Positions 787-30,037 of a stretch of DNA of 35,323 bases are shown one piece after another (positions within the stretch are counted from its first letter, which is position 1; the number at the start of each line of letters is the position of its first letter). The stretch is from Parafilimonas sp. (GTDB taxonomy: Bacteria; Bacteroidota; Bacteroidia; Chitinophagales; Chitinophagaceae), in the NCBI GenBank assembly GCA_017856455.1, contig JAFMEZ010000022.1, positions 1 through 35,323 of the forward strand. Reading direction: 5' to 3'. A program made the translations under genes and the position numbers. Under the pieces are notes generated by a model, which saw only the letters and a program-made list of their open reading frames with translations, did no database searches and had not been told where the DNA came from.

Positions 787-1179
787 ATGAAAAAAGTAAT
801 TTTTACACTAATCATTGCTGCAGGAATATATGCATGCGGATCGAGCAACACTGAAACAACAGAACAAAAGCCCATTAGCAATGCAACAGAAGAACCTTTA
901 AAAGAGGAGGCTCCTGCAGTTGCAAAGAAAGACGGTAAGGCTTTGATTGAAGCATCTGATTGCAGAACATGTCATAAAGACGATACAAAATTGATTGGCC
1001 CTGCTTATAAAGATGTTGCAAAAAAATATCCAAGTAATCCAGATAATATCAAGATGCTTGCAGAAAAAATTATGAAAGGTGGACAAGGAAATTGGGGTGA
1101 AATTCCAATGGCAGCACATCCAAATGTTTCAATGGAAGATGCTTCAGCCATGGTAGAATATATTTTAACCATCAAATAA
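787..1179 (+). CDS. Small lipoprotein c-type cytochrome
   Basis: A 130-residue class I cytochrome c of the c551/c552 type, likely an electron carrier anchored by lipid at a membrane. The N-terminus is a lipoprotein signal with the lipid cysteine at C17 (IYAC), followed by a roughly 35-residue linker rich in Glu, Thr and Ala. The haem motif CRTCH is at residues 59-63. The probable distal ligand is M108 in EIPMAAHP. It sits one base upstream of the DUF1080 gene and two genes upstream of a fusion protein whose cytochrome domain is about half identical to it by eye. This suggests that it accepts or relays electrons from sugar oxidation in the same pathway. The cytochrome assignment is firm; the partner is inferred. 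Confidence 0.93.
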   Translation: MKKVIFTLIIAAGIYACGSSNTETTEQKPISNATEEPLKEEAPAVAKKDGKALIEASDCRTCHKDDTKLIGPAYKDVAKKYPSNPDNIKMLAEKIMKGGQGNWGEIPMAAHPNVSMEDASAMVEYILTIK

Positions 1180-1180
1180 A

Positions 1181-1912
1181 ATGATCAATATGAAAAAATT
1201 AACAACGATTGCTTTTTTGATTTGTGCTATTGCACTTGTATCATTTGTGAATAAGGGACAAGGAACAAGTGATGAGGGAAAGGGAAAGAAGAAAGGATGG
1301 GTTTCTTTGTTTGATGGAAAGACTAAAAAGGGCTGGCATATTTATCGTGGTGAAGGAACAGGATCATCTTGGCAAATAGAGGATGGTGCATTGGTTTTCA
1401 TTCCTAGCACTGAAAAGGGAGTAAAGAATGGAGGAGATTTAACCACTGATCAGGAATTTGAAAATTATCATTTCAGTGTGGAATGGAAAATTTCTGAAGG
1501 TGGAAACAGCGGCATTATTTTTAATGTGAAGGAAGATTCGGTCAATAAGAAATCTTATTTAACTGGAATGGAAATGCAGGTATTGGATAACGACAGACAT
1601 GCTGATGCGAAAATTCATAAACACCGTGCCGGCGATTTGTATGATCTAATTCCTTCATCAAAAGAATCTGCAAAGCCTGTTGGAGAATGGAACCTTGCAG
1701 AAATTATTTACAATAACAATGAGCTTAAATTGTTTTTGAATGGTGTAAACGTTGTAAGCACAATTGTTGGAGATGACAACTGGAATACCATGGTAGCTGG
1801 AAGCAAATTCAAAAGCATGCCTGGATTTGGTAAATACCACAAAGGAAGAATTTCACTTCAGGATCACGGAAATAAAGTTTGGTTCAGAAATATTAAAATC
1901 AAACAACTATAA
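1181..1912 (+). CDS. DUF1080 / 3-keto-disaccharide hydrolase-family exported protein
   Basis: A 243-residue exported protein of the DUF1080 family (PF06439), now linked to hydrolysis of 3-keto-glycosides and having a concanavalin-like beta-sandwich fold. After a signal peptide (roughly residues 1-27) comes the family opening GWVSLFDGKTKKGWH, then FSVEWKISEGGNSGIIF and GMEMQVLDN, and the C-terminal ISLQDHGNKVWFRNIKI. All are typical of the family, and the length is that of a single-domain member. ATG 1181 lies one base after the cytochrome stop; ATG 1190 (MKKLTTIAF) is an equally plausible start with a more conventional signal n-region. The placement between a cytochrome and a sugar-dehydrogenase-like fusion fits an oxidise-then-hydrolyse glycoside pathway, but the substrate is unknown. 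Confidence 0.9.
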   Translation: MINMKKLTTIAFLICAIALVSFVNKGQGTSDEGKGKKKGWVSLFDGKTKKGWHIYRGEGTGSSWQIEDGALVFIPSTEKGVKNGGDLTTDQEFENYHFSVEWKISEGGNSGIIFNVKEDSVNKKSYLTGMEMQVLDNDRHADAKIHKHRAGDLYDLIPSSKESAKPVGEWNLAEIIYNNNELKLFLNGVNVVSTIVGDDNWNTMVAGSKFKSMPGFGKYHKGRISLQDHGNKVWFRNIKIKQL

Positions 1913-1931
1913 AATCTTTCTTTTAAATTTG

Positions 1932-1966
1932 AAAATGGATGTCCTTTAAAGACATCCATTTTTTTA
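1932..1966 (+). terminator. Intrinsic terminator after the DUF1080 gene
   Basis: A perfect stem AATGGATGTC (1934-1943) / GACATCCATT (1951-1960) with loop CTTTAAA is followed by a run of Ts to 1965. It ends only about 17 nt before the ATG of the ThuA fusion, leaving almost no room for an independent promoter. It may therefore act as a partial terminator inside the operon. Confidence 0.8.
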
Positions 1967-1982
1967 TCATTAAACTTTTGCT

Positions 1983-4900
1983 ATGTTATCCAAAATCAAA
2001 ACATGTTTGTCAGTAATACTTTCTCTTTTTGTATTGACAGCATCAGGCCAAACAAAAATTTTGGTTTTTTCCAAGACAGCCGGATTCAGGCATTCATCTA
2101 TTGTTCCTGGAAAACCCGCTATCATGAAATTGGGAAAAGAAAATGGCTTTGTTGTTGATACAACTGAAGATGCATCGAAATTTACTGATGCTGTTTTGAA
2201 AGAATATAACGCTGTTGTTTTTTTGAATACAACTGGAGATGTACTGAATATCATTCAGCAAGCAGCATTTGAAAGATACATTCAATCGGGTGGTGGATTT
2301 ATGGGTATTCATGCTGCAACGGATTGTGAATACAACTGGCCATGGTATGGAAAATTGGTTGGAGCATATTTCAAGGGACATCCAAAAAATCAAAAGGCTA
2401 AACTTAATGTAATCAATAAGTCTCATCCAAGTACTTCACACTTACCAGATGTTTGGGAGCGCGTTGATGAATGGTATAATTTCAAAAAGGCACCAAGCAA
2501 AGAAGAAGTGAATGTACTCGTAACAATAGATGAAACTTCATATCAGGGTGGAGATAATGGCGCATGGCATCCAATGGTATGGTACCATGACTATGATGGT
2601 GGAAGAGCATACTATACAGAATTTGGACATACTGATGAATCGTTTGCAGATCCAAATTATTTGAAACATATTCTAGGTGGAATACAGTATGCCATTGGCA
2701 ACGGATCAAAACCAGATTATTCCAAAGCGAGAACACAAAACGCTCCAGAAGACGATCGGTTTACAAAAAATATTTTGGCTGGTGGGGTGTTTGATGAACC
2801 AACAGAAATAGCCATCCTCCCAAATTTGGATATTCTGGTTTCACAACGCAAGGGCGAGTTGACATATTATAATCAACAAACAAAAAAAGCAACTCAAGTT
2901 GCTAAACTGAACGTATATCATAAATCAGGAGTGAGAGATGTCAATGCAGAAGAAGGTTTCATGGGCATAACAGCAGATCCTGATTATGCAAAGAATAATT
3001 TTATATATGTATACTATGCACCCATTGATACATCTGTAAACAGACTTTCAAGATTTGTATTTAAAGATGGGAAGCTTGACCTAAAATCTGAAAAAGTGAT
3101 TTTGGATGTTGCATCCACTAGAAAAATTTGTTGCCATACAGGGGGATCACTGACGTTTGGCAATGATAGAAATTTGTATTTATCAACTGGTGATAATTCA
3201 ACGCCATTTAATCAACCCAACTCAAAATATACATTGGATGGATACGGACCAATGGATAATCGTCAAGGGTTTGAACAATGGGACGCAAGAAGAAGTTCTG
3301 CCAATACAAATGATTTGAGAGGAAAGGTGTTGCGTATAAAAGTTGATGAGCAAGGAAATTACACTATTCCAGAAGGAAACCTTTTCCCTCCAGGAACACC
3401 AAAAACACGTCCTGAAATTTATACAATGGGAACAAGAAATTCTTATCGCATTGCTGTTGATAAGAAAACAAACTATTTGTATTGGGGAGATGTTGGTCCT
3501 GATGCACAAGATGATCATCCAAATGAAAGAGGAACGCGTGGATATGATGAAATGAATCAGGCAAAGAAAGCTGGATTTTTTGGTTGGCCATTATTTGTTG
3601 GAAACAATTATCCTTATCGTCAATTTGATTATGAAACAGGTAAGGTGGGAGATTATTTTGATCCAAAGAAACCATTGAATCTTTCCAAGAACAATACAGG
3701 ATTGGTAGAATTGCCGCCTGTTAGTCCTGCATTCATATATTATCCTTACGCTGCATCTGCAGAATTTCCAGAGGTTGGATCTGGCGGAAGAAATGCAATG
3801 GCTGGGCCAACTTACCACTCTGAATATTTTCCATCTGCAACGAGGTATCCATCTTACTATGATAATAAAGTTTTGTTTTATGAATGGATGAGAGGATTTT
3901 TCAAGTGGGTGACATTGGATAAGGAAGGGAATTATGAAAAGATGGAATCATTTGTTCCACATATTAAATTCAACAATGCAATTGATGTTGAAGTTGGTCC
4001 GGATGGTAGATTGTATGGAGTTGAATATGGAACAGGTTGGTTTTCCAAAAACAATGACGCTGCATTATTTCGTATTGATTATAATGGTGGGAACAGAGCG
4101 CCTAAGACTGCTATAAAGGTTGATAAAAAATCTGGTTCTATTCCATTCACTGTAAAGGTTAGTGCTGAAGGCTCATCTGATCCAGATAAAGATGCGTTGA
4201 ATTATGTTTGGCATTTTGGATCAGTGGTACAAAAAGCAACAACTTCAAACAATGCAAGTTTTACATTTACTAAAGCTGGTGATTATAATATATATGTAGA
4301 AGTAAAAGATGCAAAGGGAGCAACAACGAAGAGCGAGGTGATAAAAATTTATGCCGGCAATGAAGCGCCAACAGTAACCGTGAAGAATGTAAACAGTAAT
4401 AGTTTTTATTTTCCTGGTATTCCCGTTCCATATGAAGTGTTGATCAATGATAAAGAGGATGGAACTTCAGAAAAAGGAAGCGTTGATAAAAAATCAATTT
4501 TTGTAAAGGTTGATTATATCAGTGGAATGGACAGAGCGCAGGTAATGGGACACCAAATTATCACTGCTGCGATGGAAGGAAAGAATCTTGCTGCAACATT
4601 GGATTGTAAAGTATGTCACAAAGAAAATGAAAAATCAATTGGACCAGCTTACAAGCAAGTTGCACAGCGATATCAAAATGATGCTAAAGCAAAAACATAT
4701 CTTACCAACAAGATCATCAAAGGTGGCGGTGGTGTTTGGGGAGAGACAGCAATGGCTGCGCATCCAGACCTGAAGCCTTCTGATGCAGAGATGATTGTTG
4801 AGTGGATATTGGGATTAAATAAAACTGCTGCACCATCATTGCCTTCAAAGGGAAGTATTACACCAACAGCTAAAGACTTAGGCAATGGAAATTTAATGCA

Positions 4901-5372
4901 GATCACTGCAACATATACTGATAAAGGTGGAAAAGGTATTCGTCCACAAAGCGGTGTAGGAAATCTGATATTAAGGAGTCCAATTATTTCTGTTGACGCC
5001 AACAATGGAGTTGATAAAGTGGCGATAGCAGAGTTTGACGGTAAAAAAATTGCAGTATCAACGGATAGGATTGGATTGATTCATTTTGACAATGTTAATT
5101 TGAGTAATGTTACCCTGGTTGATATAAATTATATGATGCAGGCTGTTCCGGATATTGGATATACCATCAGTTTACATGTTGATGGTGCAAATGGAAAGCA
5201 GTTGGGAGCTGTAAAAATTGGACATGATGTTGATCCGAAAGCAACAAAAGCATCAATTGTATTGAATGATGTACCAGCTCAACCTTTCAATTTATATGTG
5301 AAAATTACCAAGGCTGATGCAAAAGAGACACAGTATTTGGCGATTGGTTCGCTGCACTTGTTGGTGAAGTAG
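1983..5372 (+). CDS. Exported ThuA - sorbosone dehydrogenase-like propeller - PKD - cytochrome c fusion
   Basis: An 1129-residue exported multidomain protein. Approximate order: signal peptide 1-23; ThuA-like domain 24-240 (glutamine-amidotransferase-like fold, associated with sugar utilisation; FMGIHAATDCEYNWPWYGKL and the WYNF region visible); glucose/sorbosone dehydrogenase-type beta-propeller 255-700 (EEGFMGITADPDYAKN, CCHTGGSLTFG, STGDN, ELPPVSPAFIYYPY); PKD domain 705-790; cytochrome c domain with CKVCH at 875-879 and a Met in ETAMAAHPD; C-terminal beta domain about 955-1129 resembling a CBM6-type carbohydrate-binding module. The likely role is periplasmic or surface oxidation of a sugar, passing electrons within the polypeptide from the propeller to haem. 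Related architectures are widespread in Bacteroidota and mostly uncharacterised. It lies in the operon with cytochrome c and DUF1080. The propeller cofactor (PQQ or none) cannot be read from the sequence. Confidence 0.9.
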   Translation: MLSKIKTCLSVILSLFVLTASGQTKILVFSKTAGFRHSSIVPGKPAIMKLGKENGFVVDTTEDASKFTDAVLKEYNAVVFLNTTGDVLNIIQQAAFERYIQSGGGFMGIHAATDCEYNWPWYGKLVGAYFKGHPKNQKAKLNVINKSHPSTSHLPDVWERVDEWYNFKKAPSKEEVNVLVTIDETSYQGGDNGAWHPMVWYHDYDGGRAYYTEFGHTDESFADPNYLKHILGGIQYAIGNGSKPDYSKARTQNAPEDDRFTKNILAGGVFDEPTEIAILPNLDILVSQRKGELTYYNQQTKKATQVAKLNVYHKSGVRDVNAEEGFMGITADPDYAKNNFIYVYYAPIDTSVNRLSRFVFKDGKLDLKSEKVILDVASTRKICCHTGGSLTFGNDRNLYLSTGDNSTPFNQPNSKYTLDGYGPMDNRQGFEQWDARRSSANTNDLRGKVLRIKVDEQGNYTIPEGNLFPPGTPKTRPEIYTMGTRNSYRIAVDKKTNYLYWGDVGPDAQDDHPNERGTRGYDEMNQAKKAGFFGWPLFVGNNYPYRQFDYETGKVGDYFDPKKPLNLSKNNTGLVELPPVSPAFIYYPYAASAEFPEVGSGGRNAMAGPTYHSEYFPSATRYPSYYDNKVLFYEWMRGFFKWVTLDKEGNYEKMESFVPHIKFNNAIDVEVGPDGRLYGVEYGTGWFSKNNDAALFRIDYNGGNRAPKTAIKVDKKSGSIPFTVKVSAEGSSDPDKDALNYVWHFGSVVQKATTSNNASFTFTKAGDYNIYVEVKDAKGATTKSEVIKIYAGNEAPTVTVKNVNSNSFYFPGIPVPYEVLINDKEDGTSEKGSVDKKSIFVKVDYISGMDRAQVMGHQIITAAMEGKNLAATLDCKVCHKENEKSIGPAYKQVAQRYQNDAKAKTYLTNKIIKGGGGVWGETAMAAHPDLKPSDAEMIVEWILGLNKTAAPSLPSKGSITPTAKDLGNGNLMQITATYTDKGGKGIRPQSGVGNLILRSPIISVDANNGVDKVAIAEFDGKKIAVSTDRIGLIHFDNVNLSNVTLVDINYMMQAVPDIGYTISLHVDGANGKQLGAVKIGHDVDPKATKASIVLNDVPAQPFNLYVKITKADAKETQYLAIGSLHLLVK

Positions 5373-5795: not shown

Positions 5796-6686
5796 CTACA
5801 GGTATTTTACAAGTGATGATTGAATATGACCAATGCTTTGTTTGATGCTGTCTAAAGGGTTACCCGGACAAACATCTTGTTCAACAAAGAAGTGTTTCAT
5901 ACCAGAGAGTTTTGCATTTTTGAAAATGGTTGCGAAGTCAATTACACCATTTCCAACTTCGGTAAAGTTTTTCTTTTCGGTTTTATCCATGTCTTTCACG
6001 TGCCATAGTGCTACCCTTCCCTTGTGTTGGTTGAAAAACTGTATAGGATCTTGTCCAGCGCGACTTGCCCAATACAGATCAAGTTCAATTTTAACCAAGT
6101 TCTCATCAGTTTGTTTGGTAAGAATATCCATCGGCAATTGTCCATTTACCATTTCAAATTCAAAATCATGGTTATGGTAACAAAGTTGAATGCCTGCTTT
6201 TTTGCAGGTTTCACCAGCCTTATTTAAATCTTCTGCGATTTTTTTATAGTCATCGATTGATTTTCTTTCATTCGGCATGAGGTATGCAACAACCATATAG
6301 TCTTGACCAATTGCTTTTGCGTCTTCAACTGCTTTTTCCCATCCGTAAACAATTGTACCAGGTACTTGTCTGTTTCCAAAGTTTCCGTACATGTAATGTC
6401 CGCTTGCTGCTTTCAAACCAACATCCGATAGGAATGTTTTGTATTCGGCTGCGTTCATTCCAAAATATTTACCATTGTATCCAAAGTTTTCAACTTCGCT
6501 GAAACCAAGAGCGGCAACTTGTTTGATGGTGCCTTTTGCATCTTTGCCTATCAAGTCTCTTACTGTATAAAGTTGTACACCTACTTTTTTATTTTTTACA
6601 TCTGCAAATGCAAAAGAATCTTTCATCATGATTGTACCTGCAGACAACCATGCCATTTGTTTGAGCAGTTCTCTTCTTGTAGTCAT
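5796..6686 (-). CDS. Tat-exported sugar isomerase/epimerase (xylose isomerase-like TIM barrel)
   Basis: A 296-residue TIM-barrel protein of the sugar phosphate isomerase/epimerase family carrying an export signal. The N-terminus has a twin-arginine motif (TTRRELLKQ, residues 2-10) and a hydrophobic stretch ending at SFAFA near residue 28, so it is probably folded before export through Tat. Barrel motifs include VGVQLYTVRD, CYHNHDFEFE, VKIELDLYWASRAGQDP, LWHVKDMD and HFFVEQD. These supply the His, Glu and Asp residues expected for a divalent-metal site. It starts 10 nt after the thioredoxin-like gene ends and precedes the TMEM220-like gene. An extracytoplasmic isomerase acting on free or oxidised sugars, such as 3-keto-hexoses, would fit the neighbouring DUF1080 and dehydrogenase genes; that role is inferred. 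Confidence 0.88.
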   Translation of the reverse strand: MTTRRELLKQMAWLSAGTIMMKDSFAFADVKNKKVGVQLYTVRDLIGKDAKGTIKQVAALGFSEVENFGYNGKYFGMNAAEYKTFLSDVGLKAASGHYMYGNFGNRQVPGTIVYGWEKAVEDAKAIGQDYMVVAYLMPNERKSIDDYKKIAEDLNKAGETCKKAGIQLCYHNHDFEFEMVNGQLPMDILTKQTDENLVKIELDLYWASRAGQDPIQFFNQHKGRVALWHVKDMDKTEKKNFTEVGNGVIDFATIFKNAKLSGMKHFFVEQDVCPGNPLDSIKQSIGHIQSSLVKYL

Positions 6687-7479: not shown

Positions 7480-10400
7480 ATGAAAAAAGTGCTTGCTTTT
7501 TCTCTAAGAGCTATGATGCTTGCGGCTTTCATGGGCCTGTTGGTATCTGCTTCTTATGCGCAGAAAAAACTCACTGGTAAAGTTACCGGTGGTGACACTG
7601 GAGGCGGACTCTCTGGTGCGACTATCAAGGTAAAGGGTTCAGCTACTGCAGTAACAACTGGAGCAGATGGATCTTATTCTATCACTGTTCCCAACAACTC
7701 AACTTTGCAGGTATCCTTCGTTGGATATGATGAGCAAGAAGTGAAAGTTGGTGAATCAAGTGTTCTGAACATTGTTATGCAAGCTGCTCAAAGCGCTTTG
7801 CAGACAGTTGTTGTTACAGGATACGGTTCACAGGAACGCAGAAGCATTACAGGATCTGTTGCTGTCGTAGACACCAAGGAGATGACCAAATTTGCAGCGT
7901 CTAATATTGCAGACCAGTTGCAGGGTAAGGTTCCAGGTGTTCAGATGTCAACTTCTGGTGATCCAGGTTCTGCTGCTTTCGTTCGTATTCGTGGTATTGG
8001 TACAATTAACAACAACGAACCATTGTACGTTGTTGATGGTGTTCCTGTACAAAACGAATCAAACATCAACTTCTTAAATCCTAATGATATTGAAACCATC
8101 CAGGTATTGAAGGATGCGGCTTCTGCTTCAATTTATGGATCAAGAGCAGCGAATGGTGTAATTGTGATCACAACCAAAAAAGGTAAAAGCGGTTCTTCAA
8201 AACTTGCAGTAGATCTTTTTTATGGTAACCAAACACCTTCAAAAGTTCCTGAAGTATTGAATCCATTGGAATTCCTAGAGGTTCAGCAGAAATTAGCTGC
8301 TGGTCAGGGTATTCCTTTCACTTCAAACATTTATATCAAGCAGGGCAGCAATTGGGTACTTCCTGATTATGCTGTTCGTGGATTGGGTGGTTACCTATCA
8401 GGTGATCCAGCCGTTGATCCTACAAAATATTTCTTGAACTCTGATCCAGTTGGACGTGGAGTAGGTGACTATTTAATTTTGAAAACAAACAAAGCTGGTA
8501 CTGACTGGTTTAGAGAAGTTTTCAAACCAGCTGCGATGAAGAACTATCAAGTTTCTGCATCAGGCGGTTCTGATAAAGGAAATTATTTCTTCTCTGGTAA
8601 CGTTTACGATCACCAGGGTATCATGATTGGCAATGACTATCGTCGTTACCAAGCTCGTGTAAACAGCAATTACAATATTGGTAAATATATCAGAGTTGGT
8701 GAAAACTTAAACATTGCATACCAAACAACAAGAGCATCTTTTGGTAACCCTAATGAAGGTTCTCCATTGATCAGTACTTATGGTATGCCACAGTTGGTTC
8801 CTGTTTATGATATTCAGGGCAACTTTGCTTCACCTGCTAACTTCAACTCAAACGTGAGTAACCCTGTTGCTCAACAATTGAGAAACCAAGCAAACAATTT
8901 CGGTCATAGCTTCCGTGTAACTGGATCTGCTTTTGCTGAAATTGACTTTACTGATTATTTGACTTGGAAATCTTCTTATGGTATTGACTATAACAGTGGT
9001 CCTGGTCAAGGTTATGGTACTCGTGCTTATGAAGCAACTGAAGGAAATACCAATCCAAACTCAATGAGTAACTCTTATTTCTTGAACAGAAACTGGGTGA
9101 CTTTCCACACATTGACTTTCAAGAAGAGCTTTGGTGACCATAGAGTAACTGCTCTTGGCGGTTATGAGGCAAAACAATCCTACTATGAAGGATTCAATGC
9201 ATCTGGTTCTGAACTTGCTTTTGATAACTTCAACTACAGATTGTTGCAGAATGTGAATCCTGCTACTTATCGTATGGGAAGCTACAGAGGTGAGCACAAT
9301 GTTGTTTCTCAGTTCGTTCAAACTTCTTATTCATACCAAGACAAATATTTATTCTCTGGTACTGTTCGTCGTGATGGATCTTCAAGATTCATTGAGAACA
9401 AGTATGGTATTTTCCCATCAGCTTCAATTGGTTGGAGATTATCTAAAGAGAAATTCATGGATAATGTTTCATTCATCACTGACTTGAAACTAAGAGCATC
9501 TTATGGTGTACTTGGTAACAACGAAGTAGGTGGTGATTATCCTGGTTACTCAAACTTCGGTACAGGTGTTGACGTATCTAACTACGATATCACTGGTACT
9601 GGTAACAGAACAACTACTGGTTTCGAACAAAGTTCAACAGGTAACCCTAAGTTGAAATGGGAAAGCACTGCAGTAACCAACATTGGTTTTGATGCGAATC
9701 TAACTGGTGGCTGGAACCTTATGGTGGAGTGGTACAATCGTAACACACGCGATATGATTTACAATGTGGAGCTTCCATTAGAGTTGGGTGCTGTTGGCCG
9801 TCAGGCACAGAACATTGGTTCAATGAAAAATACTGGTATTGATTTTGCACTTGGTTACACTAAGCGTGTAAACCGCGATTTCAATTTCAATATCAACGTA
9901 ACAGGTTCTACTGTTAAGAACGAAGTGGTTAAGCTTGAAGCAAATGATAACAGCTTTATCCGTTCTGGTGGATCTAGAATTGGTGACATCACTTATACTA
10001 AGGCGGGTCTTCCAATTTCTCAGTTCTATGGTTATGTTCAACAAGGTTTGTGGAAGTCTGATGCAGACATCGCTAAGGTGTTGTTCGCAGATAAGGGCGA
10101 CGCAAAAGTTGGTCGTTTCCGTTTTGCTGATTTGAATGGTGATGGTAAAATCGATAACAACGATGAAACTTATCTTGGAAGTCCAATTCCAACATTGTTG
10201 CTCGGTTTGAACTTGACTGCAAACTATAAGAATTGGGATTTCACAGCATACATCAGCGGAACATATGGAAACAAGTTGTTCAATTTCGTGAAGTACTTCA
10301 CAGAGTTCAACGCCTTCCAGCGTAGCCGTAGCAAAGCTTTCTTGTATGAGGCTGGTAAAACACTTCCAGTATTGGATGGTGGTGATAACTATAGCTCTCA

Positions 10401-10692
10401 AAGAAACAGCTACTATGTTGAGGATGGTTCATTCACACGTTTGAGAAACCTTCAGGTTGGATATTCATTCAGTCCAAATCAATTGAAGAAGCTTGGTTTG
10501 AGCAGATTCAGAATCTACGCTCAAGGTCAAAACTTGTTGACAATGACCAAGTATTCTGGTTTGGATCCAGATGTAACTATCACAAACATCACCGAAGGGT
10601 ATAATAGCCAGCGTGACCTTTCATTGGGTCTTGATAACGGTCGTTATCCATTGGCTAGATCAATCATTGTAGGTGTAAATGTTGAGTTCTAA
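7480..10692 (+). CDS. SusC/RagA-family TonB-dependent outer-membrane transporter
   Basis: A 1070-residue outer-membrane barrel that imports oligosaccharides or other large nutrients with energy from TonB. A signal peptide (cleavage after A27, SASYA-Q) is followed by a carboxypeptidase-D-regulatory-like domain (about 29-105), the SusC-type TonB-box region VVVTGYG (110-116), a plug domain (GKVPGVQ, VRIRGIGTINNNEPLYVVDGVP) and a long barrel. The conserved C-terminal EF-hand-like segment DLNGDGKIDNND and the terminal aromatic Phe (VGVNVEF) are present. There is no STN domain at the N-terminus, so it is not expected to signal through an anti-sigma factor. It is followed 99 nt later by susD. The substrate is unknown; sugar-oxidation genes lie on the other side of the shared promoter region. 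Confidence 0.97.
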   Translation: MKKVLAFSLRAMMLAAFMGLLVSASYAQKKLTGKVTGGDTGGGLSGATIKVKGSATAVTTGADGSYSITVPNNSTLQVSFVGYDEQEVKVGESSVLNIVMQAAQSALQTVVVTGYGSQERRSITGSVAVVDTKEMTKFAASNIADQLQGKVPGVQMSTSGDPGSAAFVRIRGIGTINNNEPLYVVDGVPVQNESNINFLNPNDIETIQVLKDAASASIYGSRAANGVIVITTKKGKSGSSKLAVDLFYGNQTPSKVPEVLNPLEFLEVQQKLAAGQGIPFTSNIYIKQGSNWVLPDYAVRGLGGYLSGDPAVDPTKYFLNSDPVGRGVGDYLILKTNKAGTDWFREVFKPAAMKNYQVSASGGSDKGNYFFSGNVYDHQGIMIGNDYRRYQARVNSNYNIGKYIRVGENLNIAYQTTRASFGNPNEGSPLISTYGMPQLVPVYDIQGNFASPANFNSNVSNPVAQQLRNQANNFGHSFRVTGSAFAEIDFTDYLTWKSSYGIDYNSGPGQGYGTRAYEATEGNTNPNSMSNSYFLNRNWVTFHTLTFKKSFGDHRVTALGGYEAKQSYYEGFNASGSELAFDNFNYRLLQNVNPATYRMGSYRGEHNVVSQFVQTSYSYQDKYLFSGTVRRDGSSRFIENKYGIFPSASIGWRLSKEKFMDNVSFITDLKLRASYGVLGNNEVGGDYPGYSNFGTGVDVSNYDITGTGNRTTTGFEQSSTGNPKLKWESTAVTNIGFDANLTGGWNLMVEWYNRNTRDMIYNVELPLELGAVGRQAQNIGSMKNTGIDFALGYTKRVNRDFNFNINVTGSTVKNEVVKLEANDNSFIRSGGSRIGDITYTKAGLPISQFYGYVQQGLWKSDADIAKVLFADKGDAKVGRFRFADLNGDGKIDNNDETYLGSPIPTLLLGLNLTANYKNWDFTAYISGTYGNKLFNFVKYFTEFNAFQRSRSKAFLYEAGKTLPVLDGGDNYSSQRNSYYVEDGSFTRLRNLQVGYSFSPNQLKKLGLSRFRIYAQGQNLLTMTKYSGLDPDVTITNITEGYNSQRDLSLGLDNGRYPLARSIIVGVNVEF

Positions 10693-10791
10693 ATTGATCA
10701 CTTGCTTAAACAATTGATTGAATCGAAAAAAAATTGAAATATTTTTATCGGTAATTGAAATTGAAAAGCACAAAGAATAAAAAATAAAAAA

Positions 10792-12504
10792 ATGAAAAAG
10801 AATATCATGCAAAAATTAGCGGTGATCGTAGTTCTAGCGATTGTCGTTTACAGTTGCGCAAAAGATTTTCTTGAAACACAGCCTTACGGAAGTGTGAACA
10901 ACGAACTTTTGTCAACATCTGAGAAGGGTGCAAATGCCCTGCTCATCGCTGCTTATTCTGGATTGGATGGTTTCTCTGGTTGGGATAACGGTACACCTTG
11001 GGGTGGTGCTGCTTCAAACTGGACATTCGGCAGTATCGCAGGTGGTGATGCATATAAAGGGTCAGAAGCTGGTGACCAGCCAGATATTACGCCGCTTGAG
11101 CGTCACAGTGTTGATGCAAACAATCCATATTTGGAAGGAAAGTGGAGAAATTACTACGATGGTATTTCTCGTTGTAATCAAACCATTGTTGCTTTCACTA
11201 AACTTGAAGGAATTTCAGCTACTCAAAAAGCAACTCGCTTGGCAGAAGCTAAATTCTTAAGAGCTTGGATGCACTATGATCTTTGGAGAATTTTCAGAAA
11301 TGTTCCTTTCATTGATGAAACACTCGAAGATGTTCGTGTTGGTAATACAGCAGATATCATGCCTAAAATTCAGGCTGACTTGCAAGCTGCTATCGCTGGC
11401 CTTCCTGTAACTCAACCAGAAGTTGGTCGTGTTACTAAAGGTGCTGCTCAAGCAGTATTGGGAATGACCTACATGTGGCAAAAGAAATATTCTGAAGCAA
11501 AAGCACAATTTGATGCAGTGATCGCTTCTGGTCGCTATGCATTGAATGCAAAATATTCAGACAACTTTAATGCATCTGTAAGAAATACAAAAGAAGGTAT
11601 TCTTGAAGTGCAAATGGCTGTTAATACAGGTGGTGGTGATGCTGGTAACGTAGGTGATGTATTGAACTTCCCTTACAATGGTGGTCCTGCAGGTTGCTGC
11701 GGATTCCATCAGCCATCTCAAGACTTGGTTAACTCTTTCCAGGTTGATGCAGACGGTCTTCCATTGTTGGATACCTATAGCAATAAAGATGTAACCAACG
11801 ATGATGGTGTTAAAGCAGATGCTGCCTTCACACCACATGCTGGTCCATTGGATCCTAGACTTGACCGCACTGTTGGTCGTCGTGGTATTCCTTATTTGGA
11901 TTGGGGTAAACATCCTGGTTCAATTTGGATTCGTGATCAGGCATATGGTGGACCATATGCTCCAATCAAGAACGTTCACGCAAAGTCTCAGGTTGCAGAA
12001 GTTACACATGCTTCTGGATGGACTTCTGGATATAACTCAAACAACTTAAAGTTGATTCGCTTGTCAGACGTAATGTTGCAATTGGCTGAAGCTGAAGTTG
12101 AATTGGGTAACCTTGAAAGAGCACGTACACTTGTAAACCAAATCCGTCAAAGAGCTTCTAATCCAGCTGACTTTGTATTGGATGGTGCTGCACCAGCAGC
12201 CAATTATAAAGTTGGATTGTATACTGCAGCTTGGACAGATGCAGCAACTGCTCGCAAGGCAGTTCGTTTTGAGCGTCGTATTGAATTGGGTATGGAAGGA
12301 CATCGTTTCTTCGACCTAGTAAGATGGGGTGTTGCAGCAACTGTTAAGAATGCATACTTTGCAAAAGAAAAATCAAAGAGAACATATCTTAACGGCGCAA
12401 GCTTTGTTGCTGGTAAGAATGAAATCTTCCCTCTTCCTGCAAAGGCTATCACTCAGAGTGCTAAAGATGGTGCTCCAACGTTGAAGCAAAATAGTGGTTA
12501 TTAA
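10792..12504 (+). CDS. SusD/RagB-family nutrient-binding surface lipoprotein
   Basis: A 570-residue lipoprotein that forms the lid of the SusC transporter and binds the nutrient at the cell surface. The lipid cysteine is C22 (VVYSC) and is followed by the typical AKDFLETQP segment. The TPR-like helical core (LAEAKFLRAWMHYDLWRIF) and the C-terminal family signature RFERRIELGMEGHRFFDLVRWG are clear. The leader before the ATG is very A-rich (AAAGAATAAAAAATAAAAAA) and has no Shine-Dalgarno sequence, common for strongly translated Bacteroidota genes. It pairs with the upstream SusC and ends 21 nt before a strong terminator. Confidence 0.97.
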   Translation: MKKNIMQKLAVIVVLAIVVYSCAKDFLETQPYGSVNNELLSTSEKGANALLIAAYSGLDGFSGWDNGTPWGGAASNWTFGSIAGGDAYKGSEAGDQPDITPLERHSVDANNPYLEGKWRNYYDGISRCNQTIVAFTKLEGISATQKATRLAEAKFLRAWMHYDLWRIFRNVPFIDETLEDVRVGNTADIMPKIQADLQAAIAGLPVTQPEVGRVTKGAAQAVLGMTYMWQKKYSEAKAQFDAVIASGRYALNAKYSDNFNASVRNTKEGILEVQMAVNTGGGDAGNVGDVLNFPYNGGPAGCCGFHQPSQDLVNSFQVDADGLPLLDTYSNKDVTNDDGVKADAAFTPHAGPLDPRLDRTVGRRGIPYLDWGKHPGSIWIRDQAYGGPYAPIKNVHAKSQVAEVTHASGWTSGYNSNNLKLIRLSDVMLQLAEAEVELGNLERARTLVNQIRQRASNPADFVLDGAAPAANYKVGLYTAAWTDAATARKAVRFERRIELGMEGHRFFDLVRWGVAATVKNAYFAKEKSKRTYLNGASFVAGKNEIFPLPAKAITQSAKDGAPTLKQNSGY

Positions 12505-17890: not shown

Positions 17891-17897
17891 ATCATTT

Positions 17898-18564: not shown

Positions 18565-18980
18565 AAAAAACAAGTGGAGAAATATTAAAATCAAGTTCGC
18601 TCAGTATTACTGATGGCAGAAAAAAAATATTAGACATATTTCTTTCAGCACCCAATGCTTTGGCACATCAGGATATTGAATTAAAATGTAAAGAGAAGTT
18701 TGATAGGGTTACTATTTACAGAACACTTCAAGCTTTTTTAGAAAAAGGAATCATACATACTATTCCTTCTTCCGATAACATAACACGTTATGCTTTATGC
18801 AATGATGATTGTATCGATAGCGGGCATCATCATGATAATCATGTTCATTTTAGTTGCGATGAATGTGGTAAAACAATTTGTTTAGATGAAACTGCAATAC
18901 CATCAGTTCGTTTACCCAATGGATTTCGTGCACATCAAATCAATATGATTGTTTCGGGCGTTTGCAAATCTTGCTTATAA
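18561..18980 (+). CDS. Fur-family metal-responsive transcriptional regulator
   Basis: A 139-residue DNA-binding regulator of the Fur/Zur/PerR family. The winged-helix recognition segment is FDRVTIYRTLQAFLEKGII (about residues 48-66). The dimerisation half carries a His-rich metal segment (HHHDNHVHF) and two CxxC pairs (CDEC and CKSC) for structural zinc. The ATG overlaps the SCO1 stop by four bases. It probably regulates its own operon and the divergent MerC-like gene through the palindrome at 17898-17912. Whether it senses zinc, iron, copper stress or peroxide cannot be told from the sequence; the rich Cys and His content and the neighbours favour zinc or copper. Confidence 0.92.
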   Translation: MKKTSGEILKSSSLSITDGRKKILDIFLSAPNALAHQDIELKCKEKFDRVTIYRTLQAFLEKGIIHTIPSSDNITRYALCNDDCIDSGHHHDNHVHFSCDECGKTICLDETAIPSVRLPNGFRAHQINMIVSGVCKSCL

Positions 18981-25479: not shown

Positions 25480-26208
25480 TTAAAATTTCGAATCTATAAA
25501 GTAAGGCAACATTTTTCTCCAGGTTGGCCAATCATGATGAATATCATGGGCCCAGATTTCAAGATCATGCGGAATTGATTTGTTATGCAATACTCCCGAA
25601 AATCTCCTGTTTGCCTCTGGATCTTCATGTGATCCACTCCCCGAAGCTATGATCATTTTGCCACTTCTTATTTTTTCAAGTGTTTCATGATCTGTTAAAT
25701 TGGGTATATAGTGAATGGGTGAGTTAAAATAAACCTGATCATCATAGTATCCATCTGAATATTCCATTAAATCATATACACCACTCATGGCAATGACACC
25801 TTTGAATAAATCCGGTCTTTTTAAAAAAACATTCATTGCATGAAGTGCTCCAAAGGAAGCGCCAGTAGTTATGATGGATGTCTCATTTGAGGTGAAATTT
25901 TGTATAAATGGAACTACTTCTTTAAAGATATATTCGTTGAATTGATTTTGCCTGATGGCTTTATGGGCTCCTTCCATTTGTTTATTCATCCAACTCTCAG
26001 TGTTAATGCTGTTAATGGAAAACACTTTTATTTTTCCTGCATCAATCATCGGAGCTAAGTGATGAATCAATTCAAATCTTTCATACTCAAGAAAATCAGC
26101 TGCTGCTGTGGGGATCATCAATAAGGCAAATCCGTAGTGACCATAAACTGCTATGGGCATTTCTTTTTGTAAAGCAGGACTATACCATTGATGAATTTCT
26201 CTAACCAT
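25480..26208 (-). CDS. Alpha/beta-hydrolase esterase (putative esterase family)
   Basis: A 242-residue cytosolic-type alpha/beta hydrolase related to the esterase D/antigen 85-type family. The nucleophile elbow is G116-A-S118-F-G120 (TTGASFGALHAM). The catalytic histidine is likely in the C-terminal HDIHHDWPTWRKML segment. No signal peptide is seen. Its ATG shares one base with the stop of the propeller-azurin gene (TAATG), which implies translational coupling; polA starts two bases after it ends. It could remove acyl groups from the sugar substrate of the neighbouring module, but this is inferred from position only. Confidence 0.85.
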   Translation of the reverse strand: MVREIHQWYSPALQKEMPIAVYGHYGFALLMIPTAAADFLEYERFELIHHLAPMIDAGKIKVFSINSINTESWMNKQMEGAHKAIRQNQFNEYIFKEVVPFIQNFTSNETSIITTGASFGALHAMNVFLKRPDLFKGVIAMSGVYDLMEYSDGYYDDQVYFNSPIHYIPNLTDHETLEKIRSGKMIIASGSGSHEDPEANRRFSGVLHNKSIPHDLEIWAHDIHHDWPTWRKMLPYFIDSKF

Positions 26209-28193
26209 TATGGCACAACTTTAATGATTCCTCTCATCACCGATGCATGACCTGGGAATGTGCAAACAAAGGTGTACTCACCCGGAGTAGTGGGTGCTAT
26301 GAAATAAATAGACTCACTTGTTTCCGGTTGAAGCAGTGCTGTATGATAAAGTACTTTTGAAGAATTAGGAACATAATTCATTTCTGAACCTTTTAATCCG
26401 AGCTTTAAAGCTTGTGATGCAACGTCATCCGCTGCACCTGGTGCTACGATCACAACATTGTGCGTCATGTCATCATTATTATTGAAGATCAACCTTACTT
26501 TAGAACCAGCTTTCACTTCAAAATTGGTAACATCATATTTCAGTCCAGGTTTTGTTCCCAGTTTTAACACTCTATCTGGCTGCGTCCAATCTGCTGGCAT
26601 ACTTGTCTGCCTTTTTTTCGTAGCAACCGTTTTACCTGATGCAGCAGGCTTCATATCATGATGCATCCCAGCATGCATATTTATTTTTTCAGTTGATTTT
26701 AAAGTTGTTTTATCTCCTTCAGGGATATTGTTCAACGTATAATATGCGAAGTCATGTAAAAGTGATTTCTGATCTGTTGATTCTAAGTTTGCAATCCTGA
26801 TCTCATGGATATATCCAGGTATCAAGCTGTCCAAAACGAGTTTTACTTTTCTTCCATCATCAGAAGGTACGATTCCAATAATTTTTCTTGGACGATTGTT
26901 GATAATAGGACTGCCGTATTGATGATGGTATTTATATATAAAACTGTTGACAGTATAATTTTTTACATCTTTCAGTTTCGATGTATTTACGGGTAAAGTG
27001 AATTCTACTTCAAATCCATCAGGAAGTGCATGAATATTTTTCATTTCAAATGGAGTTTCTCCATTCCATACCAATCGCTGTAGTGCATACTCAGCCTTTC
27101 CTGTGCTTGCCCATCCTCTGCTTGTCATTCCACCAAAAATAGAACCGTCAATACCCCAACGTAATCTAACGAGTCCAGATGCAAACCCTTCGTAAAAAGG
27201 ATAACATGCACCTTGGTATTTCCCATTTACTTTTTCAAGTGACATTCTCATAATTTTTGAATGTCCTTGATCTGCAACAAAATATTGTCCATTAAAAGGA
27301 CCGAACGCGCCGTTTGTTTGATCTTCAATTATATCTGCAGTTGAAATTCCCATGATGGTATGCGGAAACCAAACAGCAGGAAGTTTTAGAGCCTTGATTG
27401 TTTTTGCAGCTTCATGCATCGGCTGACCATTATCAACAACTTTTAAATCTTCTTTAGTCAACTTCAATGGAGATTCAGGTTCTTTTGTCCAATTGAGTCC
27501 ACCTGCATTTCCAGCAAAATCACCCTTTTCCAAATGTGTAACTCTTCCACTCCCAACCCAGTCACCTTGATTCTCTGCATAGAAAACATCATTGTTGCTA
27601 TTTACTGTAAATCCGGCTGGGGATCTCAATCCAGTTGCAATAGGTTCTTGCGTACCATCATTTTTTATTTTAAGTAACCAGCCATGCCATTTGCCTAAAC
27701 CATCACCATATCCAACCCAAGCAACGTTTAGTGTAACAAACATATCTCCATTCTTATCAAATACAGGTCCGTATGCATATTCATGATAGTTGCCACTCAG
27801 TTGAAACAGAGTAATTGGCGTATAACTATCTGCTATGCCATCGCCGTTTTTATCTTCAATCTTGGTTAATTCACCGCGTTGAGTACAATAGAATGCCCCA
27901 TCTCTGTATGCCAAGCCCAGTACTTCGTGTAGGCCAGAAGCAAATCTGCTAAAATGTGGTTGTCCGTTTCCGTATGCATTTTGAATGATCCAGATTTCAC
28001 CTCTTCTTGTTGATGCAGCAATTCTTCCGTCTGGCATTACAGCAATACCGCCAACTTCCAATTTTACATTATCGGGAATGGCGACAGTTTTTAATGCGTA
28101 AAAATCTTTCTCTGATTGTACTACATTTTTTTGGGCATTTGCAATGCAAAAAACCGTTGAAAAAAATGATGCTAGAAGTATTTTATTGAACAT
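26208..28193 (-). CDS. Exported beta-propeller fused to azurin-type copper domain
   Basis: A 661-residue exported protein. A signal peptide (cleavage near ANA-Q21) is followed by a beta-propeller resembling sorbosone/glucose dehydrogenase and related Bacteroidota and Planctomycetes proteins (GGIAVMPDGRIAASTRRGEIW; HEVLGLAYRDG; GLRSPAGFTVNSNNDVFYAEN; YFVADQGHSKIMRMS). A middle beta domain leads to a Met/His-rich linker (506-514, MHAGMHHDM). The C-terminal cupredoxin has all type-1 copper ligands of azurin/auracyanin: H578 (THNVVIV), C644, H649 and M653 (CTFPGHASVM). The likely role is periplasmic or extracellular sugar oxidation with electrons passed to copper. No haem motif is present. The gene is translationally coupled to the esterase and follows the DUF1080-PA14 gene by 29 nt. 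Confidence 0.9.
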   Translation of the reverse strand: MFNKILLASFFSTVFCIANAQKNVVQSEKDFYALKTVAIPDNVKLEVGGIAVMPDGRIAASTRRGEIWIIQNAYGNGQPHFSRFASGLHEVLGLAYRDGAFYCTQRGELTKIEDKNGDGIADSYTPITLFQLSGNYHEYAYGPVFDKNGDMFVTLNVAWVGYGDGLGKWHGWLLKIKNDGTQEPIATGLRSPAGFTVNSNNDVFYAENQGDWVGSGRVTHLEKGDFAGNAGGLNWTKEPESPLKLTKEDLKVVDNGQPMHEAAKTIKALKLPAVWFPHTIMGISTADIIEDQTNGAFGPFNGQYFVADQGHSKIMRMSLEKVNGKYQGACYPFYEGFASGLVRLRWGIDGSIFGGMTSRGWASTGKAEYALQRLVWNGETPFEMKNIHALPDGFEVEFTLPVNTSKLKDVKNYTVNSFIYKYHHQYGSPIINNRPRKIIGIVPSDDGRKVKLVLDSLIPGYIHEIRIANLESTDQKSLLHDFAYYTLNNIPEGDKTTLKSTEKINMHAGMHHDMKPAASGKTVATKKRQTSMPADWTQPDRVLKLGTKPGLKYDVTNFEVKAGSKVRLIFNNNDDMTHNVVIVAPGAADDVASQALKLGLKGSEMNYVPNSSKVLYHTALLQPETSESIYFIAPTTPGEYTFVCTFPGHASVMRGIIKVVP

Positions 28194-28222
28194 ATAGATG
28201 TTTTCTTTTTATATAAATATGT

Positions 28223-30037
28223 TTACCAAATCAATTGATATTGAATTTTTTCTTTTGCAGATAAAATCAGCACGCGCTGACCTAGATAAGTTTCAATATT
28301 GGGTAAAACACTTGTACCAACTTGGATGAAATATTTTTGATCGTCAATCGCATATACACCATTCCCTAACGGAGTAATGTTTGAACCTTGTGCAATTCGG
28401 ATCAATGTTTTTTCTTTGCCATCTCCCTCAACCTGAATTGTTCTGCTCAACCCTCTTCCATTTTCATTTGGCGTAATCTGATCTTCAATTTTCAAATTTT
28501 TATAATTGTATTTGAATGTAGGATGTCCTTTTCCTGAAATATCATATCCCTTGTATTGATAAGCTGCAATAGAATCTTTCGTTGCAGTTCTTTCATAAAC
28601 AGGACAATTTCCAACAAGATCAATTGATGCACCTAAAGGTGAAGCTGTTTGTGGTTCACCTCTCTCGTACCACATGTCAGTTGCATTTAGAAAATTTCCT
28701 TTCCATATTTTCAACATTGCACCTTGCAATAAATCATATGCATAATGCAATTGTGTAGGGTCTCCTACTGATAATACATGTGTTAATTTTTTATTGTTAT
28801 GATACATGAAGGATCTGATGATTTCAGGATTCCCGATTGCCTTAACCTCTACCAATGGTGCAGGAGTTCTATCAGGCATTGATGCTGGAGCATGAAGTGC
28901 AACTGCCCTACTGTTGGGCTTTTCGACATACAAAGAAAATCCAGGAGGTGCCCAGTTTACGTCTTTGCTGATCCAAATTTTAAATTGATGTGAACCTGCA
29001 TCCAAGTCAATGTTGCCTGTTAATGGATCTGCGCCTATCCAAGTCCAGTTTGGCTCAATTACTTTTTTACCATCTATTTCCAGACTGCCATCTCCCGTAT
29101 GCAACATAGAGAAAGTATAAGTGTCTTTTGAAGGCACATTTATTTTTCCTTCAAATTGTAAATAGAACTGATCTCTTGCAGAAGCAAGTCTACCGTCTAA
29201 TGATTTTATTTTTCCAAAGCTTGTAGGTTTTGTTTTAGTGGCTTCATCTGGAGTTTTTGCAGATTTTTCAAAATAAGAATAGTTGATATCACTGAGTGTG
29301 ACATTTAATTCATCTTGAGGAGCGTATTTAAAATTTTTAAATGCAATCTGACCATGATCACCTTGAATCATCAATGGACCCATTGCCGTTTCATTTTCAA
29401 ATGCAGGTGATCTAGTTGGTCCGCTTACAATGATGTTTTCATGAATTGTAACACCATTCAAACGAACGTAATTGAATTTTGCGTTTGTAATTTTTTTTCC
29501 GCTTGCATCAAATCTTGGTGCCTGAAATGATATTTCCATATGCTGCCATAATCCTGGTGCAAGTCCAGCATTGGTAAGCGGCGCACTTCCTTCATAGCCT
29601 TTTTCATTTTTCCATCGTTCATAAATTCCACCAACATCACTGAATGTTGGAAGTTTTACACCCCAGCTATCATTGATTTGAACTTCATAACGGGATTGAA
29701 GATAAATGCCTGAGTTAGCACCTTTAGGGATCATGAAATCAAAATCAAGTACGATATCACCATGTTGCAGTTTAGTAGTCAGATGATGTCCTGGTTTATA
29801 TTTGATTGCATGAGAAAAATCATTGAAGAGAATTCCCTGTCCTCTTGCAATATTTAGAGAGGTGTCTGAGAAATTCGATTGAACTGCTCCGATGATTTTC
29901 CAGTTTGATGAAGGATTATCAAAACTTTCAAGAGAGCTTAATGAGAGCTCTTTGAATCTTGGTTTTACTTTTTGAGCATCAGCAGAAAATAAAATAAATA
30001 ATAACAGGAGTGAAAGACATGAAATTTTCAAGCGCAT
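28223..30037 (-). CDS. Exported DUF1080 - PA14 protein
   Basis: A 604-residue exported protein. ATG 30037 gives a good signal peptide (cleavage near ADA-Q22); the longer in-frame TTG at 30070 lies within a palindrome and is disfavoured. Residues about 45-255 are a DUF1080/3-keto-glycoside-hydrolase-type beta-sandwich (FDFMIPKGANSGIYLQSRYEVQ; LMIQGDHGQIAFKNFKY). Residues about 270-380 form a PA14-type carbohydrate-binding domain (FEGKINVPSKDTYTFSMLHTGDGSLEIDGKKV). The remaining about 215 residues (YAYDLLQGAMLKIWKGNFLNATDMW and onward) are a beta-rich region I cannot name with certainty. It is the first gene of the second oxidation module, 58 nt after uvrB. Confidence 0.88.
   Translation of the reverse strand: MRLKISCLSLLLLFILFSADAQKVKPRFKELSLSSLESFDNPSSNWKIIGAVQSNFSDTSLNIARGQGILFNDFSHAIKYKPGHHLTTKLQHGDIVLDFDFMIPKGANSGIYLQSRYEVQINDSWGVKLPTFSDVGGIYERWKNEKGYEGSAPLTNAGLAPGLWQHMEISFQAPRFDASGKKITNAKFNYVRLNGVTIHENIIVSGPTRSPAFENETAMGPLMIQGDHGQIAFKNFKYAPQDELNVTLSDINYSYFEKSAKTPDEATKTKPTSFGKIKSLDGRLASARDQFYLQFEGKINVPSKDTYTFSMLHTGDGSLEIDGKKVIEPNWTWIGADPLTGNIDLDAGSHQFKIWISKDVNWAPPGFSLYVEKPNSRAVALHAPASMPDRTPAPLVEVKAIGNPEIIRSFMYHNNKKLTHVLSVGDPTQLHYAYDLLQGAMLKIWKGNFLNATDMWYERGEPQTASPLGASIDLVGNCPVYERTATKDSIAAYQYKGYDISGKGHPTFKYNYKNLKIEDQITPNENGRGLSRTIQVEGDGKEKTLIRIAQGSNITPLGNGVYAIDDQKYFIQVGTSVLPNIETYLGQRVLILSAKEKIQYQLIW

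Follow-up and report, generated by a model that had tools for sequence, protein, structure and literature searches.

Gene content of the two modules

The stretch of DNA that we analysed, 35,323 nucleotides from Parafilimonas sp. (contig JAFMEZ010000022.1, positions 1–35,323; hereafter the window), carries two modules that each combine DUF1080 with a propeller and a fused electron carrier (Table 1). A preliminary description had proposed two such modules with different carriers, and domain matches together with the fold confirmed it, the carrier being cytochrome c in module A and a cupredoxin in module B.

Table 1. Features of modules A and B, with positions in the window.
Feature	Position	Strand	Evidence or remarks
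Module A	787-5372	+	small cytochrome c, DUF1080 protein, ThuA-propeller-PKD-cytochrome c
Small mono-haem cytochrome c	787..1179	+	PF00034, E 6e-10
Stand-alone DUF1080 protein	1181..1912	+	PF06439, E 7e-52
ThuA - GSDH-type propeller - PKD - cytochrome c - C-terminal region	1983..5372	+	
ThuA domain	2055..2693	+	PF06283, E 5e-80
GSDH-type propeller	2790..4082	+	Pfam match spans 2790-3629, E 2e-35
Fused cytochrome c domain	4572..4817	+	PF00034, E 6e-9
Module B	26208-30070	-	DUF1080-PA14-C-domain, then propeller-cupredoxin
DUF1080-PA14-C-domain protein	28223..30070	-	first ATG at 30037; model pLDDT 89.6
DUF1080 domain	29309..29950	-	E 2e-24; EVQIND and QGDH motifs present
PA14 domain	28901..29299	-	PF07691, E 4e-8
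C-terminal beta domain, common to partner proteins	28226..28858	-	
Propeller-cupredoxin protein	26208..28193	-	
Propeller domain, sugar-dehydrogenase fold	26724..28118	-	Foldseek 2ism, 3das, 3a9g; alignment
Cupredoxin (auracyanin-like) domain	26211..26573	-	PF00127, E 1e-11; 6kol E 1e-12

In module A, the small cytochrome c has an N terminus that looks lipoprotein-like in translation (IYACGSS, judged by eye). The DUF1080 protein that follows scores 176.6 bits for PF06439 (cut-off 26.8), contains the ExQxxD and QDHG motifs, shares the polar residues ExQxxD and QDH with solved members in alignments, and resembles the eliminase/hydratase structures 8rr2 and 8tda (phmmer, E about 6e-38). The ThuA domain of the large third protein was missing from the preliminary description, as was a SusC/SusD pair at 7480-12504, which lies about 2.1 kb past module A with three minus-strand genes intervening. 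Two xylose-isomerase-like TIM-barrel proteins flank the module. The window has zero matches to glycoside hydrolase families, in keeping with the earlier statement that it contains no classical glycoside hydrolase.

In module B, the DUF1080 domain also clears the PF06439 cut-off, at 87.5 bits, and the cupredoxin has the type-1 copper ligands H578, C644, H649, and M653. The region that corresponds to the C-domain in a distant relative (L222) gives a DUF6797 match just under the cut-off.

Both propellers have the sugar-dehydrogenase fold

The module A propeller was recognisable by sequence profile (2ism, E 2e-27; sGDH, E 2e-18). The module B propeller had no Pfam match above the cut-off, and because a search of PDB sequences with propeller-B profiles returned mainly designed and NHL-type propellers and zero sugar dehydrogenases, a fold search was needed. 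An AlphaFold2 model (pLDDT 88.5) submitted to Foldseek identified the domain (2ism, E 3e-14), with sugar dehydrogenases as the best matches and the AA12 pyranose dehydrogenases 6jt5 and 6h7t also among the matches. The propellers of both modules thus have a sugar-dehydrogenase fold.

We take His144 and Arg228 (sGDH numbering) to be the catalytic residues of these enzymes, and Lys377, Arg406, and Arg408 to be the residues that clamp PQQ; the clamp positions were checked against the numbering of the sGDH chain. Equivalents of His144 and Arg228 were both kept in 16 of 16 module A propellers. Among module B propellers, R190, which aligns with the catalytic Arg by profile, was kept in 95 of 95, and H137 was kept in 93 of 95 but lies about three columns off the catalytic His in the profile alignment. 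The clamp fared differently in module A: none of the 16 propellers had an Arg at the columns of sGDH 407 and 408, position 377 was occupied by M, I, L, or A instead of Lys, and position 406 fell inside an insertion of sGDH relative to these propellers. Alignment of module B over the clamp positions was unreliable. A cytochrome-GSDH paralogue on another contig (C93) of the same genome kept the R-x-R. Searches for PqqE (TIGR02109) found no match above the cut-off in 28 carrier genomes (26 had weaker matches) and none at E 1e-60 or above the cut-off in 395 genomes of the phylum, with no control genome above the cut-off in either search. PQQ can also be scavenged. With the clamp residues gone in module A and no PqqE above the cut-off, we do not accept a PQQ enzyme as demonstrated.

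Loss of the clamp in module A would also fit propellers that are non-catalytic binding scaffolds, with the carriers serving other dehydrogenases and 3-keto sugars coming from enzymes of the known Gfo/Idh or GMC kinds. Hedgehog-interacting protein, a binding scaffold, is among the relatives of propeller A by sequence and of propeller B by fold, and the genome contains 19 Gfo/Idh matches (18 above the cut-off), one of them immediately preceding the gene of a double DUF1080 protein (L052), as well as two GMC matches, which sit on contigs other than that of the window, where the GMC family has no match. We nevertheless consider this explanation unlikely, given that polar residues are strongly conserved across the architectures and that the propeller is constantly coupled physically to an electron carrier.

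Module B is a conserved gene pair with an exchangeable carrier

We assembled 126 propellers of the two-gene type: 80 from named loci, 45 drawn from samples of the order and the phylum, and that of the window. The named loci are the closest 80 of at least 582 and are therefore biased; the phylum search contributed every place at E 1e-40 or better and part of the weaker ones. Two of the loci, L077 and L193, are one contig; of the 152 propeller proteins, 151 are distinct, and domain calls rest on profiles built from window seeds.

A DUF1080 gene lay at most two genes upstream of 114 of the 126 propellers, compared with 3 of 489 background genes (80 named loci), which led us to reject a local accident as the origin of the pairing. 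Counting any recognised partner, 118 of the 126 had one within two genes upstream, directly upstream in 104 of those cases, and the median gap between directly adjacent pairs of all types was 16 bases (n = 109). The other eight propeller genes (seven distinct, two being one contig) had no recognised partner nearby. Six single chains joined cytochrome c, PA14, propeller, and DUF1080. Module B is therefore a conserved bipartite system. SusC/D genes lay no more than five genes away in 17 of 125 module-B loci; because the search profile was built from the SusC/D pair of the window, this is a minimum.

Relatives of propeller B, counting single-chain and other distant types, occurred in 46 of 395 Bacteroidota genomes, and a propeller-A relative was present in 44 of these 46 as against 23 of the 349 genomes lacking a B relative (Fisher p 9e-39, ignoring relatedness). 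Distant relatives match DUF7133 and DUF6797 above the cut-off.

The carrier was a cupredoxin on 104 of the 126 propellers and a cytochrome c on 22. Copper ligands were present in 103 of the 104 cupredoxins, and the remaining one is a fragment from the end of a contig; all 22 cytochromes had CxxCH. The propeller tree was built from 95 of 141 sequences, those left by thinning at 85 per cent identity, and excludes 11 distant ORFs that have no C-terminal carrier. On it, C-terminal haem carriers appear at three separate places, each beneath a starred branch; the tree was made quickly and has no bootstraps, and its fewest-change counts cannot separate gain from loss. The carrier of module B is thus exchangeable, having switched repeatedly between copper and haem on one propeller, which supports the earlier proposal of haem or copper as the electron sink.

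Electrons could in principle run the other way, from the carrier to a substrate bound in the propeller. Nitrous oxide reductase works in that direction and has its propeller and cupredoxin laid out alike, and such reductases appeared among the Foldseek matches. Those matches had a TM of about 0.25 and an rmsd over 20 Å, a likeness of layout only, and we regard reverse flow as very improbable.

DUF1080 is not an obligate half of the system

Conservation across genomes had been predicted for both modules, and a lack of conserved linkage, which the preliminary description named as grounds for refutation, is contradicted by the module B counts. The linkage that we found for module B has no counterpart in module A, where 1 of 20 related loci had a DUF1080 no more than five genes away (20 of 26 non-window places were fetched; one is a paralogue in the same genome, and two of the 20 stretches are cut short by the end of a contig). 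We therefore reject module A as a conserved DUF1080-propeller pair.

Within module B, 79 of 118 partners kept both DUF1080 motifs, as did the DUF1080s of all six fused chains; for the less biased samples the figure was 36 of 43. Both were absent in 31 of 118, made up of 27 of the 74 close-relative partners and 4 of the 43 sampled ones. DUF1080 is missing altogether from the cupredoxin-Cdom and cytc-PA14-propeller architectures. Four partners also lacked it: L136 and L210 are truncated where their contigs end, the DUF1080 of L109 is encoded by the ORF before it, and L137 alone seems shorter in itself. DUF1080 is accordingly not an obligate half of the module B system, and the cleavage half of the earlier oxidise-then-cleave interpretation, which gains from the module B linkage and the carriers, is weaker than its redox half.

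These counts bear on two ways of reading DUF1080. Each module might oxidise glycosides at C3 and use its own DUF1080 to cleave the product, making an extracytoplasmic two-step lytic system. The conserved pairing, the single-chain fusions, and the retention of both motifs in most partners and all fused chains argue for this, as do the titles of PDB entries 8rr2, 9fbe, 8v31, and 8tda, which call characterised DUF1080 proteins 3-keto-glycoside eliminase/hydratase. The TIM-barrel proteins beside module A add a fold-level likeness, the TIM barrel being a known 3-keto-glycoside eliminase fold according to PMC10628242. We hold this reading to be possible but doubtful, however, since DUF1080 is degenerate or absent where propeller and carrier remain, the module A linkage is not conserved, and B-type DUF1080s lack the HxDAK stretch seen in solved members (by eye).

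DUF1080 and PA14 of module B could instead bind carbohydrate and place the redox propeller on a polymer, with no cleavage at all. The partners that have lost both motifs would fit, and in one locus (L223) the partner of the cupredoxin protein bears a lectin-like Laminin_G/ConA domain; in addition, the designation DUF1080 overlaps with that of CBM66 in Thermogutta (PMC5673643). Most partners and every fused chain keep the motifs, though, and the losses fall mostly in the close-relative set, so we entertain pure binding only tentatively.

A proposed carbohydrate oxidoreductase with a swappable carrier

The reading that we prefer, with a probability of about 0.5, is that each module is an oxidoreductase acting on carbohydrate outside the cytoplasm, with a one-electron carrier that can be swapped and with cleavage as an option. 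In its favour are the conserved pairing, the single-chain fusions, the carrier exchange, the fold with its retained Arg and His, the resemblance of the module A DUF1080 to eliminase/hydratase structures, and the co-occurrence of propeller-A and propeller-B relatives. Against it stand the lost clamp of module A beside a paralogue that keeps the R-x-R, the PqqE results, the degenerate DUF1080s, the module A linkage at a single locus of 20, and the eight propeller genes that lack a nearby partner. The propeller would draw electrons from a sugar or glycoside, and these would move to the fused carrier domain, haem c in module A and blue copper in module B, for delivery to the respiratory chain. In module B, the partner encoded upstream would presumably associate with the propeller protein and provide contact with carbohydrate through PA14, the DUF1080 sandwich, and the C-domain. 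If oxidation is at C3, a DUF1080 with conserved residues, such as that in the window, may eliminate or hydrate the 3-keto product.

More speculatively, and in our judgement improbably as a whole, these propellers may represent a Bacteroidota family of extracytoplasmic carbohydrate dehydrogenases without a canonical PQQ site, in which copper and haem c have been swapped at least three times as plug-in carriers and which in many lineages is coupled through DUF1080 to non-hydrolytic cleavage of the oxidised sugar.

DUF1080 routes explain non-hydrolytic glycan breakdown, and their first step is, to our knowledge, carried out by LacABC or by NAD enzymes. To these, a widely distributed secreted pair whose propeller has its own carrier would add an oxidation step that is coupled to respiration and located in the outer compartment. 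One propeller that occurs in copper and haem versions, with or without a canonical DUF1080, also provides a natural series for ideas about the electron sink and about cleavage.

Comparison with known systems

Nasseri et al. reportedly described in 2024 a Bacteroidota 3-keto-glycoside pathway from the BT2157 region, in which cleavage of 3-keto glycosides is based on DUF1080 and oxidation is said to be by NAD-dependent Gfo/Idh enzymes. The likeness to our modules is DUF1080 itself, that of module A matching 8rr2/8tda; the difference lies in what accompanies it, reportedly Gfo/Idh in that pathway and, in the window, a propeller that contains its own haem or copper carrier. In Caulobacter and some Bacteroidota, LacABC, the oxidising enzyme of that system, converts a glycoside to its 3-keto form in the periplasm, and a DUF1080 protein that has a putative signal peptide comes next (PMC9007349). 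With this system and the PDB titles, oxidation followed by DUF1080-based 3-keto glycoside cleavage is already published, and calling the locus an undescribed oxidative alternative to a polysaccharide utilisation locus was too strong. A version built on a propeller and carrier was not found in searches of open-access literature.

Among proteins related through the propeller, the PVC-type haem-binding TIGR02604, DUF7133, and DUF6797 cytochrome proteins give weak profile matches to the window propeller, which scores under their curated cut-offs. The AA12 pyranose dehydrogenases (6jt5, 6h7t) match in structure, and fungal PDH has a haem domain and a carbohydrate-binding module fused to its propeller; that family differs in being eukaryotic, in using cytochrome b, and in having no DUF1080, and we know of no carrier exchange in it. 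The soluble PQQ glucose/aldose sugar dehydrogenases (1cq1, 2ism, 3das, 3a9g) have the propeller fold in common with both modules and the His and Arg in common with module A, whereas module A has lost their PQQ clamp and the systems described here add a fused carrier and a DUF1080/PA14 partner.

Module B is a conserved gene pair

Module B proved to be a genuine redox pair, both conserved and modular. A propeller-profile scan of the collection returned at least 582 relatives of its propeller, the best 80 of them serving as named loci, and relatives were also present in 14 of the 149 genomes of an order sample (E 1e-10) and 46 of the 395 genomes of a phylum sample (E 1e-15). From the named loci and the two samples we examined 152 propeller ORFs, and 126 of these carried a C-terminal electron carrier, which was a cupredoxin in 104 and a cytochrome c in 22. 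For 96 of the 104 cupredoxin-type and all 22 cytochrome c-type ORFs, one of the two genes next upstream in the same orientation encoded a partner (74 of 80 named loci, 43 of 45 sampled loci and the window itself). Over the 109 pairs, of all types, in which the two genes are immediate neighbours, the median gap was 16 bases. DUF1080 was recognizable in 114 of the 118 partners; as background, a DUF1080 gene occupied the equivalent place for 3 of 489 other genes in the 80 named loci.

Among the matches listed, the nearest named relative by module-B propeller was a Chitinophagaceae MAG (locus L059, 94 per cent identity). In the close relatives L060, L062 and L064 a gene of 363–376 aa, not found in the window, separates the pair; in L062, the one scanned with Pfam, it is PLP-decarboxylase-like.

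The carrier is interchangeable between copper and haem

Copper ligands were kept in 103 of the 104 cupredoxin carriers (the remaining one is truncated where its contig stops), and CxxCH in all 22 cytochrome c carriers. In a propeller tree of 95 sequences (thinned from 141), C-terminal haem carriers appeared at three places among the copper ones, as groups of 10, 2 and 3 rows with support of 99, 96 and 99. The preliminary description, which had the modules differ in electron carrier, was right on this point, and more strongly than it stated. Other architectures comprised a carrier-less propeller behind a cupredoxin–C-domain partner (five cases plus L223, whose partner bears a lectin-like domain; one clade, support 99), a single cytochrome c-PA14-propeller chain with DUF1080 at its end (six cases) or without it (three), and eleven more distant ORFs lacking a C-terminal carrier, of which the two scanned with Pfam (L226 and L231) had an N-terminal cytochrome and DUF6797. 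Constant in the classified types are a propeller and a carrier; variable are carrier position, metal and DUF1080.

DUF1080 is optional in the pair

Both conserved DUF1080 motifs were present in 79 of the 118 partners, one in 4 (short ORFs in two, L064 and L070) and neither in 31; of the 4 without DUF1080, two are truncated at the end of a contig, and in a third case the domain lies in the preceding ORF. Loss of both motifs was uneven: the close-relative set had 27 such cases among its 74 partners and the samples 4 among 43, and in the tree the loss fell mainly in one Spirosomataceae/Leadbetterellaceae group and separately in L040, L041 and L046. The motifs are thus the rule in the samples, yet the pair persists without them. 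Because the window's module-B copy keeps both (EVQIND, QGDH), the cleavage that the preliminary description proposed may occur there, although it does not hold generally.

Predicted structures and the propeller as a possible enzyme

The AlphaFold2 model of the propeller-cupredoxin protein (45 homologues, pLDDT 88.5) matched sugar-dehydrogenase propellers best in Foldseek (2ism, E 3e-14; 3das, 1e-11; 3a9g, 4e-11), with soluble PQQ glucose dehydrogenase (sGDH; 1cq1) and AA12 (6jt5) ranking lower and nitrous oxide reductases, which superposed poorly, further down; its cupredoxin part matched auracyanin (1qhq, 6kol). The DUF1080-PA14 model (pLDDT 89.6) had an extra, C-terminal third domain of beta structure and, among DUF1080 structures, was closest to 4qhz, with weaker matches to 8rr2, 9fbe, 8v31 and 8tda, four entries that by title are 3-keto-glycoside eliminase/hydratase and 3-keto-2-hydroxy-glucal hydratase structures.

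sGDH acts through a catalytic His and Arg and holds PQQ at clamp positions. In favour of an enzyme, all 16 module-A propellers compared have counterparts of this His and Arg, and module-B propellers keep R190 in 95 of 95 sequences, H137 in 93 of 95 and many further polar residues; the module-A and module-B profiles align at E 1e-4 (probability only 57 per cent) with the Arg paired and the His not exactly so. Against it, the module-A propellers in alignment to sGDH do not keep the PQQ-clamp positions. Just before the catalytic-type His, all 16 module-A propellers (window 2745–4082) have two adjacent cysteines, possibly a vicinal disulphide. A cytochrome-GSDH paralogue on another contig of the same genome (C93; L252:3279–4709) does keep the R-x-R typical of PQQ enzymes, adjoins SusD and may be a true PQQ dehydrogenase, in a genome that yielded no PqqE. 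PqqE exceeded the cut-off in none of 28 carrier genomes (26 had weaker matches) and none of the 395 phylum genomes, but no control genome exceeded it in either search, and its absence therefore shows little.

Module A is related but differently linked

Module A is a protein related to module B but differently linked. In 20 other loci, fetched out of 26 non-window places, propeller, PKD and cytochrome c always occurred together, with ThuA in 17. The conserved DUF1080–propeller linkage that the preliminary description set as its test was seen for module B (partner present for 118 of 126) and not for module A, where DUF1080 lay within five genes in one of the 20 loci, four genes away. Module-A propeller relatives occurred in 67 of the 395 phylum genomes: 44 of 46 with module B versus 23 of 349 without (kinship ignored). 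One of 125 module-B loci unites both modules (L134:4399–11968, Adhaeribacter rhizoryzae), its ThuA-GSDH-cytochrome gene directly preceding the DUF1080-PA14 and propeller-cupredoxin genes.

Gene layout

The window is one entire contig of a draft genome (1.94 Mb, 102 contigs, 89 per cent complete) with eight DUF1080 domains. By eye, the module proteins have secretion-signal-like N-termini. A Pfam-type domain scan matched no glycoside hydrolase family within the window, as the preliminary description had it. The run at 7480–17482 resembles nutrient-uptake loci, and the three genes after it perhaps handle metals.

Genes of the two modules and their surroundings
Feature	Coordinates	Strand	Context
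Xylose-isomerase-like TIM-barrel proteins	3–761 and 5796–6686		flank module A; weak IolE likeness, below cut-off
Cytochrome c, 130 aa	787–1179	+	module A
DUF1080 protein	1181–1912	+	module A
ThuA + GSDH-type propeller + PKD + second cytochrome c, 1129 aa	1983–5372	+	module A
SusC/SusD pair	7480–12504		beyond second TIM-barrel gene
FG-GAP/UnbV_ASPIC protein	12539–16159		after SusC/SusD pair
PAP2-domain protein	16160–17482		after FG-GAP/UnbV_ASPIC gene
MerC-like, SCO1/SenC, FUR-like genes in a row	17483–18980		between modules A and B
Esterase-like gene	25480–26208	-	after propeller-cupredoxin gene
Propeller-cupredoxin protein	26208–28193	-	module B, second gene
DUF1080-PA14 protein	28223–30070	-	module B, first gene

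Comparison with known routes

That DUF1080 acts after oxidation is already known; a Nature paper of 2024 reportedly describes such a pathway. Searches of an open-access library turned up no publication on the pairing of propeller, carrier and DUF1080, and the excerpted text of an azurin survey (PMC8779525) contains none of the words propeller, fused, dehydrogenase and DUF1080. Excerpts of PMC9007349 describe BT2157, a 3-ketotrehalose hydrolase, and LacABC together with DUF1080, which makes an undescribed alternative to polysaccharide utilization loci too wide a claim; the same excerpts report that a Pedobacter strain has ten DUF1080 proteins, none of which gave a lactose phenotype. Direct xanthan hydrolysis by DUF1080 proteins is a rival claim (PMC5673643, in part). 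The TIM-barrel proteins flanking module A share their fold with known 3-keto-glycoside eliminases (PMC10628242, as excerpted). Elsewhere in the window's own genome (contig C84, L052:5593–11004), a Gfo/Idh oxidoreductase gene directly precedes one for a protein with two DUF1080 domains; a GH32 gene lies close by, and this set looks like the NAD-type route.
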